DNA of 64,000 nt, taken from the NCBI GenBank assembly GCA_021785515.1, contig JAJYEX010000003.1, positions 186,001 to 250,000 on the forward strand. Direction: 5' to 3'. How positions within the stretch are numbered: position 1 is the first letter of the stretch; the number at the start of each line of letters is the position of its first letter. Below the pieces are notes generated by a model. The model had not been told where the DNA came from, ran no database searches, and saw nothing but the letters and a program-made list of their open reading frames with translations. The stretch is from Pseudomonadota bacterium. GTDB taxonomy: Bacteria; Pseudomonadota; Gammaproteobacteria; Acidiferrobacterales; UBA6901. The translations under genes and the position numbers were made by a program. This document shows positions 1,806 to 61,824 of the stretch, piece by piece.

Positions 1806-2441
1806 CTACTGAAGCTGTTCGATGATGCGCTGCAGGATGCGTCGTGGTGGTGCTCCCTGGATCACTATGGGCGTGCCGCCCTGAACCCGGAAGACCATGG
1901 CCGGCACTGCCTCCTGGCCGGCACGCTGCAGCAATGCTTCATTGGCGCGCAGATCTTTTATGATCGCCGGTTTTGGCATAGGTTCCTCCTTGATCTGTCC
2001 GAAACCCGCCGCCTGGCTGAATCCCTGTTCATTTTGTCGGAGAGCCGCGAGCCGGTTCCGGGCTTGCAGGATTGCGGCGGCTTTCCGCTGGCTGGTCGCC
2101 ATCAGCACTCCGACCGGAAGCCACCGGATCTGGACCTGGTTGTGGTTGACCCAGGGGCGCAGGTCTTCGTACAGCTTGTGGCAATAGGGGCAATTCGGGT
2201 CAAAGAATATATAAATAATGTGCGGACTGCGGCCCTCTGTGATCCAGGTTCCACGCCGGATATTTTGCAGAATGGAAGCGGCTGCCTGTTCCTGCGCGGT
2301 CTCAGACCCGGCCGACACCGCCTGGGCCGTGTCGGGTACCAGCAGGGCGACGGCCGTCAGAGCGACCGCGGCGCACAGCGAGATCGATAGCAGCAGCGCA
2401 CCCACGGTTCCTGTAACATACTGTTTCTTAAAGCTAATCAT
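1806..2441 (-). CDS. DsbG/DsbC-type periplasmic thiol-disulfide protein
   Basis: A 211-residue thioredoxin-fold protein with an N-terminal signal anchor (about residues 11-40) and the active site 'FDPNCPYCHKLY'. The CPYC motif is that of DsbG rather than the CGYC of DsbC. The following 'RPWV....VQIRWLPVGV' and the cis-proline 'VPAM' also resemble DsbG. It is shorter than E. coli DsbG because most of the N-terminal dimerisation domain is missing. It may therefore act as a monomeric reductase or isomerase, or reduce sulfur intermediates in the periplasm. No DsbD-type partner is in the window. Confidence 0.75.
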   Translation of the reverse strand: MISFKKQYVTGTVGALLLSISLCAAVALTAVALLVPDTAQAVSAGSETAQEQAAASILQNIRRGTWITEGRSPHIIYIFFDPNCPYCHKLYEDLRPWVNHNQVQIRWLPVGVLMATSQRKAAAILQARNRLAALRQNEQGFSQAAGFGQIKEEPMPKPAIIKDLRANEALLQRAGQEAVPAMVFRVQGGTPIVIQGAPPRRILQRIIEQLQ

Positions 2442-57789: not shown

Positions 57790-58227
57790 ATGGGGCCGCC
57801 ACTGACTCCGCTTCTGGCCGCCGATATCGTGATTGAGCTCGTAGACCGCGAAGCGCGTCCGGTCGTGCTCATAGAGCGGAAGAATCCCCCGTACGGCTGG
57901 GCCTTGCCCGGAGGGTTTGTGGACCGTGGGGAGAGTGTGGAGGCGGCTGCTGTGCGCGAGGCGCTCGAGGAAACCGGGCTGGAAGTGCAGCTGCGGCAGC
58001 TGCTTGGATGTTATTCAGACCCGGGGCGGGATCCGCGCGGTCATACGGCATCGATTGTGTATGTCGGTGAGGCGCGTGGCGAGCCGGTGGCGCAGGACGA
58101 CGCGGCGGCCGTGCGGCTGTTTGTTCCCCCCGATTTCCCGCAGGTTCTTGCATTCGATCACGCCAAGATTTTGAGCGACTACGTGGCGTACCGCCTCCGC
58201 GGCGAGATTCCTGCCCCCCGTTCCTGA
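57790..58227 (+). CDS. Nudix hydrolase
   Basis: A 145-residue protein with a complete Nudix box: 'GGFVDRGESVEAAAVREALEE' followed by TGL (Gx5Ex7REUxEExGU). 'VVLIERKNPPYGWALPGG' and 'LGCYSDPGRDPRGHTASIVYVGEA' are typical of the ADP-ribose/NADH pyrophosphatase-like subgroup. A GAGGTGAAG ribosome site precedes the ATG. The substrate is not known. Confidence 0.9.
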   Translation: MGPPLTPLLAADIVIELVDREARPVVLIERKNPPYGWALPGGFVDRGESVEAAAVREALEETGLEVQLRQLLGCYSDPGRDPRGHTASIVYVGEARGEPVAQDDAAAVRLFVPPDFPQVLAFDHAKILSDYVAYRLRGEIPAPRS

Positions 58228-58489
58228 GACCGGGGTTCGGTGGCAGAGACGGATGCTTGGGGCGTGGCGCGATATTCCGTTGATGCAGAGCGGCGTGAAT
58301 GGCCACAGTTCGCGTGTTCGCAGACTTTCCGGCGTCTGACTTGGAGGGTGTTTCAGCTGCCCGGCCATCCCCATGACATCGTCAGCCTTCCCGTTGGGCA
58401 GGAAACCGGGGGCCGTCCAGTCCGTCCATAGCGGCAACCGTCAGCCCTTATTCGCGCCGGCAGGCTTCATCCACAATTCCGGACCCTCG

Positions 58490-58516
58490 AAAAAAAAGCC
58501 CGCTTATGCGGGCTGG
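58490..58516 (-). terminator. Intrinsic terminator of the sigma-DsrE operon
   Basis: On the minus strand AGCCCGC pairs with GCGGGCT around ATAA, followed by a run of seven or more T. It lies 24 nt past the stop codon of the last DsrE gene and ends the ECF operon. Confidence 0.93.
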
Positions 58517-58539
58517 AAGAGAGGAGAAATTGCGACGAA

Positions 58540-58923
58540 TCAGGGTTTGATGTAGACGAAACCCTCCTGCTGGAGTCTGGCGATTTCCGCCACTCCGCTC
58601 GGCACGATGTCCACTTCCGACACACCGTAGAGGTCAGTCTGGTAATTGAGGTGCGCGCCCAGCAACGTGTTGTTGCAGACGCCGAACCTGACCCCCAGGG
58701 CCCTAAGCCCATCGATCGCGTTCCTTGCCTGCTCGTCCTGATCCGCAAGTCTGACCAGGGCCACGCCGTCGCCGTGCGTGATTACGATGATCTTGATCCG
58801 GCCCGCCCCGACTGCGTTGACGTGGTTCCGGATGTTGGTCAGCGCCCCTCTGAGCAATTTTGGGTCGCCGGAGTTGATATGGTATACCACTTTCTGGCTG
58901 GCGTATGCCGGTTCCTGGCTCAT
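58540..58923 (-). CDS. Cytoplasmic DsrE-family protein of the ECF operon
   Basis: A 127-residue single-domain DsrE protein without signal peptide. 'VVYHINSGDPKLLRGALTNIRNHV' opens the fold, Cys83 lies in 'GVCNNTL', and the end 'VDIVPSGVAEIARLQQEGFVYIKP' is shared with the anti-sigma domain and the exported paralogue at 821. It is the last gene of the sigma operon, 58 nt after the anti-sigma gene. It may relay sulfur or oppose the anti-sigma sensor in the cytoplasm. The family call is firm; the role is inferred from context. Confidence 0.85.
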   Translation of the reverse strand: MSQEPAYASQKVVYHINSGDPKLLRGALTNIRNHVNAVGAGRIKIIVITHGDGVALVRLADQDEQARNAIDGLRALGVRFGVCNNTLLGAHLNYQTDLYGVSEVDIVPSGVAEIARLQQEGFVYIKP

Positions 58924-58981
58924 GGCACTTCCCGCAATGTCTGCATGGCGTTATGCACCGAGGCCGCTCCCGGAGTGCCGG

Positions 58982-59767
58982 TCAGACCTGAACGTAGATC
59001 CAGCCCTTCTGCTGCAGGCGGATGATCTGCGCCACGCCGGAATCGATGATAGTGGTTCCGGGCAACAGCTTGGTGTCGATACCCTCGCCGCCAAAGCGAT
59101 TCAGCGTATTGAGGCAGGCCGCAAACTGCAGATTCTTGTAATGCTTCAGCATCGCGCTAACCATGTCCGGGTAGGGGGAGCGGGCAGCCAGCAGCAGGTT
59201 GAGTCCCTCGCCATTGGCGATCACTTCCACGCGCGCCTTCTGATGGGTGCGCTGGTATAAATTGAGCAGGTTGCGGGTCTCGTCCAGCACCTCCTTCATG
59301 TGCGCCGGATTGCCGCTGTTCAGGTTAAAGAGAACCTTGATGACCTGGCTGGCTGGCGTCGCCGCGCTCGCCACCATCTGTCCCGCATGTTCAGGCCTGG
59401 TGGCGGGTGAGGCCGGTGCCACCAGTGCCACCCGCGCGGATCCGCCCCAGTGGCCGATGTTGCTGGTGCTGCCCCGTTGCAGTCCACCTACCAGCACCAC
59501 AACGCCCACCACCGCCGCCGCACCCCTCAGGAATCTCCGGTGTCGGTCGCCCGCGTGCCCTGCCCGGTCCGGCGAGCCGGCCGGGTTGGGCGGATTCTTG
59601 TATGCCATCTGCACCAGATCACGAACCTTGCGCAGTTCGCAGATCCGCCGGTTCATTGCCTCGTCCTTGTTGATCTCGATGTACAGCCGGCCCTTTTCAT
59701 CAAGCGCCAGCTGATCATCGACGAACGCGTTCAGGTATTCGTCTGAAAATGGTCCTTCATTGTTCAT
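58982..59767 (-). CDS. Anti-sigma factor with C-terminal periplasmic DsrE domain
   Basis: A 261-residue membrane protein. Residues 1-58 look like a zinc-free anti-sigma domain ('YLNAFVDDQLALDEKGRLYIEINKDEAMNRRICELRKVRDLV'). One membrane helix (about 81-97) follows a basic stretch. An Ala/Pro-rich linker leads to a DsrE domain (about 141-261) that would face the periplasm: 'VLFNLNSGNPAHMKEVL', Cys218 in 'AACLNTL', 'IIDSGVAQIIRLQQKGWIYVQV'. It starts 2 nt after the sigma gene, so the pair is coupled. I infer that the outer DsrE domain senses a sulfur species or thiol state and controls sigma release. I know of no described example, but could not search. Confidence 0.82.
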   Translation of the reverse strand: MNNEGPFSDEYLNAFVDDQLALDEKGRLYIEINKDEAMNRRICELRKVRDLVQMAYKNPPNPAGSPDRAGHAGDRHRRFLRGAAAVVGVVVLVGGLQRGSTSNIGHWGGSARVALVAPASPATRPEHAGQMVASAATPASQVIKVLFNLNSGNPAHMKEVLDETRNLLNLYQRTHQKARVEVIANGEGLNLLLAARSPYPDMVSAMLKHYKNLQFAACLNTLNRFGGEGIDTKLLPGTTIIDSGVAQIIRLQQKGWIYVQV

Positions 59768-59769
59768 GA

Positions 59770-60342
59770 TTATTTAATTCTCCGAAGACGGGCTTCGCGC
59801 TTGGTCCCTATTGCGTTGAGGGCCTCCGCGCCACCGAATTCCGTGGAGAGCAGGCGCAGCAATGCGCTGCGTGCCCGACATAACCGGCTCATCACGGTTC
59901 CCACCGGTATGTCCAGCACGTTTGCGACCTCTACGTACGAAAATCCTTCCAGGTCCACAAGCGTGACAACCTGGCGCTGCCCTTCCGGCAGATGTTCGAT
60001 GGTGGCGCGCACCTTGCGTACGATCTCGATCTGGCTGTGTTCGGTCTCCGGGGTGGAGTCGTGCGGCAGATCCAGCTCGTCGATGTCCTCGGTCTCGCGG
60101 TGGCGCCGGAAATGATCCCGGTAGCAGTTGGTCAGGATGGTGAAAAGCCACGCATCACGTGCCTTTACATCGCGCAGTTGTGAGGACTTCTGCATGGCCT
60201 TGGTCAGCGTCTCCTGCACCAGATCATCCGCCAGAGCGCGGTTGTGGCACCAGGCATAGGCCATGCGGTAGAGCCGGCCCCGCGCCTGTTCGAGCGAGTC
60301 CGCAAGATCACGACGCTGGCCAAACAGTTTGAGAAAATCCAT
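59770..60342 (-). CDS. ECF RNA polymerase sigma factor
   Basis: A 190-residue sigma-70-family ECF protein. Region 2 is 'LYRMAYAWCHNRALADDLVQETLTKAMQ...KARDAWLFTILTNCYRDHFRR' and region 4 'IEHLPEGQRQVVTLVDLEGFSYVEVANVLDIPVGTVMSRLCRARSALLRLL'. A candidate promoter of ECF type (60377-60402) lies just upstream, suggesting autoregulation. It is followed directly by its anti-sigma gene and a DsrE gene. Its probable targets include this operon and the exported DsrE gene at 821. Confidence 0.93.
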   Translation of the reverse strand: MDFLKLFGQRRDLADSLEQARGRLYRMAYAWCHNRALADDLVQETLTKAMQKSSQLRDVKARDAWLFTILTNCYRDHFRRHRETEDIDELDLPHDSTPETEHSQIEIVRKVRATIEHLPEGQRQVVTLVDLEGFSYVEVANVLDIPVGTVMSRLCRARSALLRLLSTEFGGAEALNAIGTKREARLRRIK

Positions 60343-60376
60343 ATGGAGTTCTAACTCGTATCTGTTAAGGGTAAAG

Positions 60377-60402
60377 GACGGCCATCCGTGTAGCTTTATT
60401 CC
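60377..60402 (-). promoter_or_regulatory. Candidate autoregulated ECF promoter
   Basis: On the minus strand GGAATA (60402-60397) and CGTC (60380-60377) are 16 nt apart, with AA after the first box and CGGATG in the spacer. These blocks recur at 660-686 before the exported DsrE gene. The leader to the sigma start codon is about 30 nt. Confidence 0.55.
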
Positions 60403-60445: not shown

Positions 60446-61180
60446 TTATATCCCTGACGCGGAGCGAATCAGCATGGATGCCGTGTCGCCGCCATCCTTG
60501 GCGACAATCCGTATCGGTATGTTGTGGCGGGCCGGCGCCAGCCAGGCGGTAAACTCCTTGCCCGGGCCGTGACGGGTCTGTTCCACCCAGTAGACCACGG
60601 TGGTGCGGAGCCGGCCGAGGGCGCTATCGACAGTCTCCGTGCGGAGGTAGCGGTACTTATAAAGTATGATCTGGCTGCCCGTGGTGATAGGGAGCTCTCG
60701 CAGTCGCCGTGTAGACGGCGGATGCAGCATGAGCTCGAAGATCACCGTGTTCTCGTCCTGCGTACCTGGCGGCAGGGCCTCGCTGCGCTGGTCGGCGTAC
60801 CGGATTCGGGACCGGGTCCAGTCGAACCAGGCCTCCTTGCGGCGCTGGTCGCGCGCGCCGGTACGGTACTTCAGGTACTCCAGCGGATACACCTGGTCGT
60901 TGACGACCCGGAAGCGGCCCTGCTCGAACCATTGGAAGCGGGTGAGCAGGCGTGCGACGCCCGTCGGGAAGGAATGCAGGGTATAGCGGTAGGTGCCGTC
61001 CGAATCCCGATCCAGGGTGCGAACGCTGATACCTATGGGTATGGGCCCGTAGTAGACCTCATAGTTGAGCACCATGTGATTGGGGAACGGGGCCGCACGC
61101 GGGGCCTGGGCAAGGACGCTGAATGTGGCCAGCAGAAGCACTGCCGGCAGGACCCGGACCAGGGTAGTGGCTTTTATCAT
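60446..61180 (-). CDS. DUF3108 domain exported protein
   Basis: A 244-residue protein with a signal peptide (about 1-24). The mature part is beta-rich: 'MVLNYEVYYGPIPIGISVRTLDR', 'YRYTLHSFPTGVARLL', 'FRVVNDQVYPLEYLKYRTG', 'HNIPIRIVAKDGGD', which is the DUF3108 pattern found next to purN in many proteobacteria. The function is unknown, possibly in the periplasm or outer membrane. Its ATG overlaps the purN stop by 4 nt. Confidence 0.88.
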   Translation of the reverse strand: MIKATTLVRVLPAVLLLATFSVLAQAPRAAPFPNHMVLNYEVYYGPIPIGISVRTLDRDSDGTYRYTLHSFPTGVARLLTRFQWFEQGRFRVVNDQVYPLEYLKYRTGARDQRRKEAWFDWTRSRIRYADQRSEALPPGTQDENTVIFELMLHPPSTRRLRELPITTGSQIILYKYRYLRTETVDSALGRLRTTVVYWVEQTRHGPGKEFTAWLAPARHNIPIRIVAKDGGDTASMLIRSASGI

Positions 61181-61824
61181 GGGACCGATCCCTCCGGGTG
61201 CATGCACGGCCGGCCGTCGAGCAGCGCGCGTCCCTGTTCCAGCCCCAGACGGCCCTGCGCGAACCAGCGGATCGCTTCGGGCAGTATGCGGTGTTCCTCC
61301 TTGAGTACCCGCACCGCCAGCGTCTGGGCATTATCGTCTGCCCGGACCTCGACCTGTGCCTGGATGATCACCGGGCCGCCGTCGACGTCCGGGGTCACGA
61401 AGTGGACGCTAGCTCCATGATAGCGCACGCCGGCCTGCAGCGCGCGCTCGTGTGTGTGCAGGCCCTTGAACTGGGGCAGCAGGGATGGATGCACGTTGAT
61501 CAGTCGTCCGGAGTAATGACGGACAAAATCGCTGCCGAGCACGAGCATGAATCCGGCAAGCACCACGAGCGCGGGGGCGCGGGCGTCAATCTCCTCCATG
61601 AGCGCCTTCTCGAAGAGCGCCCGTGCCGGGAAGCGGCCGGGATCAACGATGACCGCCGGCAATCCGGCGTCGCGGGCGCGATCCAGCCCCTGGGCGCCGG
61701 GACGGCTGCTGATCACCGCCCGGATGTCCACCGGCAGATCGCCGCGCTGCTGCTGCTCGATGATAGCCTGGAGATTGGAGCCGCGACCCGAGATCAGGAC
61801 GACGACCGGTAGTTGCGCGATCAT
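61177..61824 (-). CDS. purN: Phosphoribosylglycinamide formyltransferase
   Basis: A 215-residue enzyme of purine synthesis that transfers a formyl group to GAR. '[15 protein letters not shown]' binds the phosphoribosyl group, '[13 protein letters not shown]' and '[21 protein letters not shown]' form the active site, and '[17 protein letters not shown]' contains the catalytic aspartate. Its ATG overlaps the purM stop (ATGA), and it overlaps the DUF3108 gene in the same way, so purM-purN-DUF3108 are coupled. Confidence 0.96.

Follow-up and report, generated by a model that had tools for sequence, protein, structure and literature searches.

Among the described systems closest to the locus discussed here are the ECF26 sigma factor pairs that control sulfite dehydrogenase, namely S. 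meliloti RpoE1/RpoE4 and Starkeya novella SigE. These sigma factors respond to sulfite and use promoters with GGAAT at -35 and CGTC at -10 (PMC6527743, PMC3511301). A different type of control has been described in Hyphomicrobium denitrificans, where thiosulfate oxidation is controlled by external sulfur through the ArsR-type repressors SoxR and sHdrR together with SoxT1B, and a SoxT-like gene is part of the regulon. These repressors are cytoplasmic and are informed via the SoxT membrane protein. How regulators in sulfur oxidisers sense external sulfur has been called poorly understood (PMC11582611).

Two protein families are also relevant. RskA, RseA, RsiW and other class I anti-sigma factors have a small N-terminal helical domain followed by one transmembrane helix, and their genes come after the gene of the ECF sigma factor. 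RskA and RseA have an Hx3Cx2C zinc motif, which is found in about 56% of class I anti-sigma factors and is hence optional (PMC7406223). The MTH1491-type DsrE/DsrF-like proteins with solved structures (PDB 1l1s) are free-standing.

The locus lies in a 64,000-nucleotide stretch of DNA, referred to here as the window, and joins a membrane anti-sigma factor to a predicted periplasmic domain of the sulfur-binding DsrE type. From the sequence comparisons that follow, we consider it fairly likely that the locus encodes an ECF/anti-sigma switch that turns on genes for the periplasmic oxidation of thiosulfate and sulfane sulfur.

Architecture of the operon and its anti-sigma factor

The operon is located on the minus strand of the window. 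The initial annotation had given its order as an ECF sigma factor, an anti-sigma protein with one membrane helix and a C-terminal DsrE domain, a DsrE gene and a terminator, and all of these were found. The sigma factor (190 aa, 59770..60342) has sigma-70 regions 2 and 4 only (Pfam Sigma70_r2, 1.5e-12; Sigma70_r4_2, 6e-17), as is typical of the ECF class. It scores above the cut-off of NCBIfam TIGR02937 and matches solved ECF sigma factors at 9e-22. A putative ECF-type autoregulatory promoter, GGAATAAA-N14-CGTC, precedes it at 60377..60402 and is the sole match in the window, where 0.02 would be expected by chance. The right boundary of the initial annotation, 60402, is the edge of this conserved promoter, which was absent from that annotation. 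The operon ends with a predicted intrinsic terminator (58489..58514), in which a T run comes after a 7-pair stem (58514..58497). It lies 26 bp past the last stop codon and was located by a pattern scan, matches of this type not being rare by chance. The neighbours are a DUF3108 protein (60446-61207, minus strand) and a Nudix hydrolase (57790-58227, plus strand), and the gene order around the operon is kept in most Acidiferrobacterales loci.

The anti-sigma protein (261 aa, 58982..59767) begins with a cytoplasmic domain (residues 1-65, 59573..59767) for which AlphaFold predicts three helices, 9-16, 22-34 and 36-57. A helical N-terminal cytoplasmic domain that is encoded together with an ECF sigma factor, upstream in 71/71 fusion loci, is characteristic of class I anti-sigma factors. 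The protein differs from RskA and RseA in having no Hx3Cx2C motif, and from class I members generally in its DsrE sensor domain. It was rejected as a zinc-type anti-sigma factor, as Cys43 (codon 59639-59641) is the only cysteine of such a motif that remains; matches of the N-terminus to zf-HC2 are weak and were obtained for 7/29 homologues. A profile of the anti-sigma domain had no meaningful match among solved structures, and no solved anti-sigma factor was found with it. The single transmembrane helix (residues 79-97, 59477..59533) is a Kyte-Doolittle peak after a basic stretch, and a comparable hydrophobic segment is present in 30/30 homologues. Both the hydropathy and the basic flank support the proposal that the DsrE domain faces the periplasm.

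The DsrE-like nature of the C-terminus (residues 142-261, 58985..59344) was also claimed in the initial annotation. It is sub-threshold in Pfam (DsrE at E 0.034, under the gathering cut-off) but firm by three other methods. Residues 144-260 match MTH1491/1l1s in phmmer at 5.8e-11, and AlphaFold models residues 143-260 with pLDDT mostly above 90 after a low-confidence linker. In Foldseek the domain matches 1l1s with an E-value of 3.5e-9 and a TM-score of 0.90 on the target. The domain shares with MTH1491-type proteins the DsrE fold, a conserved Cys that ends the fourth strand in the strand-helix turn and a C-terminal GW.Y motif; the difference is that it is fused to an anti-sigma factor, of which it makes up the periplasmic end. 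Assignment as a DsrEFH component was rejected, as there is no DsrE/DsrF/DsrH gene trio beside the operon and a DsrEFH structure is matched only at E 0.04, the closest fold being 1l1s.

The reactive cysteine, Cys218 (codon 59114-59116), had been described as kept, and it is present in 66/66 homologues. Asp17, Cys43, Trp256 and Tyr258 are likewise invariant in all 66 full-length anti-sigma proteins, with identity down to less than 30%. Cys43, which was overlooked in the initial annotation, lies in the cytoplasmic domain and is as invariant as Cys218. Sensing could be cytoplasmic, through a persulfide or disulfide at Cys43, and the periplasmic DsrE domain would then be merely a docking or sulfur-relay module. 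The invariance of Cys43 fits such a scheme, as does its replacement by Ser or Ala in two related anti-sigma factors without DsrE (L180 and L190), and there is a precedent in the cytoplasmic SoxR, which needs SoxT1B as a signal transducer (PMC11582611). However, a lone cysteine in a helical domain may be structural, and the retention in most loci of a DsrE domain with its Cys and of an exported partner is hard to explain if nothing is read there. Cytoplasmic sensing is therefore considered improbable, and the preferred reading remains that of a periplasmic sensor with Cys218 as its reactive site.

The partner DsrE gene

The third gene (58540..58923) codes for a 127 aa DsrE protein with a conserved Cys83 (Pfam DsrE, 7e-9; AlphaFold pLDDT 94.5). 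A soluble DsrE partner had been proposed from the first reading of the operon. The gene is confirmed, but a periplasmic partner in this genome is not, as the product has no signal peptide. There are 58 nt between the stop codon of the anti-sigma gene and the ATG and no signal peptide is encoded there, so that the third gene was rejected as an in-place periplasmic partner. No contact between the partner DsrE of this genome and the periplasmic domain is therefore predicted.

The situation differs in other loci. A partner DsrE gene is found in 45/71 fusion loci, where it is third in the operon or divergent from the sigma gene. A start resembling a signal peptide, sometimes with a lipobox-like cysteine, is present in 49/51 ECF-linked partner DsrE proteins, and the two without an export signal, from the window and from L032, belong to the same genus. 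Among other loci of the genus, L002 has only a degraded dsrE remnant, and no dsrE match follows the anti-sigma gene in L003 and L005, the latter ending at a contig end. Because the exceptions are confined to the genus of the window, the comparison indicates that the ancestral partner was an exported protein, and that the linked copy has lost its export signal or decayed in this genus. In 14 loci of the Acidiferrobacter type (L046, L049, L050, L052, L060-L062, L064, L065, L069-L073) a gene for a seven-bladed, lactonase-like beta-propeller follows the anti-sigma gene instead of DsrE. These loci carry the propeller, and in the genus of the window the signal peptide or the gene itself is gone, so that a linked DsrE partner is not essential.

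Other DsrE genes with export-type N-termini are present in the source genome. One (L141) belongs to the predicted regulon, and another lies in the window at about 820-1324 on the plus strand. The latter is near a gene for an exported thioredoxin-fold protein (1806-2441, minus strand), which has a CPYC motif and by eye is DsbC/DsbG-like. A similar arrangement occurs in L075, where two exported DsrE genes flank a DsbC-type gene. An outer membrane gene of the porin type often follows the divergent dsrE (L047, L076, L077, L079-L081 and others; Pfam Porin_O_P in L079).

Distribution, promoter motif and predicted regulon

The pairing of an ECF sigma factor with a DsrE-fused anti-sigma factor is not limited to this genome. 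Homologues were found in 54 of 60 relatives searched, some of them only to free DsrE, and an ECF gene was directly upstream in 30/30 loci fetched. A scan of named genomes gave 78 loci; with the window included, 71/79 have the ECF gene, and in the remaining 8 only a free-standing DsrE is matched. The neighbourhood survey suggested with the initial annotation thus places an ECF gene immediately before the fusion gene in every fusion locus, mostly in sulfur oxidisers: Acidiferrobacterales (Acidiferrobacter, Sulfuricaulis), Sulfuricella, Sulfurimicrobium, Thiobacillus, Hydrogenophilus, Parasulfuritortus, Sedimenticola, Hydrogenovibrio and Gallionellaceae.

In the source's class, a full-length fusion is found in 56/274 genomes from 38 families. 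SoxB above its curated cut-off is present in 54/56 of these genomes versus 58/218 without the fusion. SoxB or DsrA is present in 56/56 versus 67/218. The SoxB correlation is partly phylogenetic; the Fisher test counts genomes as independent though they share ancestry. The sox genes adjoin the ECF pair in four loci (L074, L075, L085 and L090), and NCBIfam confirms SoxX, Y, Z, A and B in L075. SoxB-like metallophosphatase genes are located beside the ECF operon in L044 (7322-9112, well under the SoxB cut-off) and L094 (1475-3520); the latter gene is divergent, with an ECF motif of its own.

The promoter motif is also conserved. GGAATAWW-N13/14-CGTC was found upstream of the sigma gene in 65/73 ECF genes examined; for most of the 8 exceptions the start call is over-long or the contig ends there, and several of them do have the strict pattern nearby. 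The 862 kb of loci contain 85 sites: 66 precede ECF genes, 15 dsrE, 2 soxY and 1 a SoxB-like gene, with 1 left unassigned. The reversed control pattern has 0 sites in the same 862 kb.

The source genome has 8 motif sites versus 2 for the control. They are located before the operon, soxB, a dsrE-msrP pair, a porin gene and guaB, and three are doubtful. In the dsrE-msrP pair (L141, G000:C10 13251 onward) a gene for an exported DsrE is followed by msrP, and the motif lies 61 bp ahead of dsrE. G001 and G003 have a motif before dsrE as well, with msrP also in G001. Sites before guaB, of uncertain significance, were observed in the source genome (L138) and in G002 and G003. The sites in lpd (L143) and by a contig end (L142) were set aside, as they look like chance matches. 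A further conserved ECF motif, followed by about 15-20 conserved bases, occurs in the source genome (at G000:C4:22401) and three genus members (L139, L156, L165 and L171); no convincing gene is downstream, and it possibly marks a small RNA or a leader.

Six close relatives have 39 motif sites versus 3 for the control. In 6/6 of them a gene for a SoxT/TsuA-like transporter (Pfam Sulf_transp, 1e-69) begins 25-90 bp after a site, and the motif precedes soxB in two, G002 and G004. Across 21 fusion genomes, 7 sites lie upstream of soxB in the same orientation and no more than 5 kb away, versus 0.08 expected, the seven including two same-family pairs (G136/G260 and G177/G291). The strict motif was not found near soxB in G012, G009 and other fusion genomes. 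In 22 SoxB genomes without the fusion there are 18 motif sites versus 33 for the control, none of them near soxB.

These data bear on whether the locus is an ordinary ECF system for envelope or thiol stress, in which the DsrE fusion and the link to Sox are incidental to a common lifestyle. ECF systems are common and the SoxB correlation is partly one of ancestry, but the motif is placed specifically before soxB, soxY, the SoxT-like gene and dsrE and is absent around soxB in the genomes that have no fusion. A general stress role is considered very improbable. The link to sulfur proposed in the initial annotation is well supported by SoxB co-occurrence, by the adjacency of soxXYZAB in some genomes and by the predicted regulon.

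Relation to ECF26 systems and proposed mechanism

The fusion-linked motif has the GGAAT/CGTC consensus of ECF26 promoters. ECF genes linked to sulfite dehydrogenase (sor) genes were fetched and are 42-45% identical to the window sigma factor, and in L180 and L190 the motif is also found before the sor gene. In a search of three sor-linked anti-sigma proteins, the profile of the fusion's N-terminus matched L180 with 37 bits and L190 with 23 bits, and the DsrE profile had no match. Because the promoter, the sigma factor and the anti-sigma N-terminus are related while the sor-linked anti-sigma factors have no DsrE, the system resembles an ECF26-like module, by promoter and homology, in which the periplasmic sensor has been exchanged for DsrE. 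It shares with the ECF26 pairs the control of sulfur compound oxidation. In contrast, the sor-linked anti-sigma factors examined have a non-DsrE periplasmic domain and no Cys43, and their targets are sorT/sorA and not sox, SoxT-like or dsrE genes. In three anti-sigma factors encoded beside sulfite dehydrogenase genes (L180, L186 and L190) the periplasmic domain is a different one that has a GC[HR]L motif in common and is possibly a sulfite-sensing domain.

Sulfite is what the ECF26 relatives respond to, and it may be the signal here as well. The locus would then be an ECF26-type switch whose signal is sulfite, including sulfite formed from thiosulfate, with DsrE binding sulfite or reporting a sulfitolysed disulfide, and the regulon would serve sulfite stress or turnover and not a response to sulfane sulfur. 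The shared promoter consensus, the sigma factor identity of 42% over 156 aa to a sor-linked ECF and the homologous anti-sigma N-termini all speak for this. However, the domain that faces the periplasm in the sor-linked anti-sigma factors is a different one, and the predicted targets are soxB, soxY, the SoxT/TsuA-like gene and dsrE. No sulfite dehydrogenase gene is among the targets in the source genome (soxB, dsrE-msrP, porin and the operon itself); MsrP is the nearest and the only one with a sulfite oxidase fold. Sulfite as the signal is considered unlikely, though less so than the other alternatives.

The mechanism favoured here is a switch that responds to oxidisable sulfur. The anti-sigma N-terminus would hold the sigma factor at the inner membrane, with the DsrE domain in the periplasm. 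Oxidisable sulfur (thiosulfate, tetrathionate or a derived persulfide) would form a persulfide or thiosulfonate on Cys218, which it may reach directly or via the exported DsrE protein. DsrE3A of Metallosphaera is reported to form a Cys-S-thiosulfonate with tetrathionate and to transfer thiosulfate to TusA (PMC4175335); such reactivity makes both the proposed chemistry at Cys218 and a hand-over from exported DsrE plausible. The change would be passed on through the single helix, or proteolysis would occur, and the sigma factor would be freed. The freed sigma factor would transcribe from GGAATA-N15/16-CGTC promoters of its own operon, the exported dsrE and the soxB or soxYZAB operon; the SoxT/TsuA-like sulfur transporter, msrP and porins are further proposed targets. 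The arrangement differs from SoxR and sHdrR in that a membrane anti-sigma factor would itself carry the sulfur-binding-type domain. The broader proposal is that this is a widespread and so far undescribed one-step transmembrane sulfur sensor. Cys218 would take up sulfur, probably from exported DsrE, and the domain would thereby directly control a sigma factor devoted to the Sox-type oxidation of thiosulfate across dozens of beta- and gammaproteobacterial families; we give this proposal an even chance.

In the open-access literature no DsrE-fused anti-sigma factor was found, nor an ECF sigma factor that controls sox through one; subscription papers and the main ECF classification lay outside the scope of this search, and a prior mention is possible.

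The outward part of the switch is a sulfur-handling domain and the predicted sites precede genes for thiosulfate oxidation; for these reasons the switch is probably the means by which these bacteria detect external sulfur as food. A specific candidate sensor, with its promoter motif and regulon, is now available in at least 38 families. Some have cultured members, such as Sulfuricella sp. T08, Parasulfuritortus cantonensis and Hydrogenovibrio sp., and the question of sensing can thus be tested with point mutants and reporters. The comparison also suggests that ECF26-like systems diversify by exchanging the periplasmic sensor domain while the sigma factor and promoter are kept.
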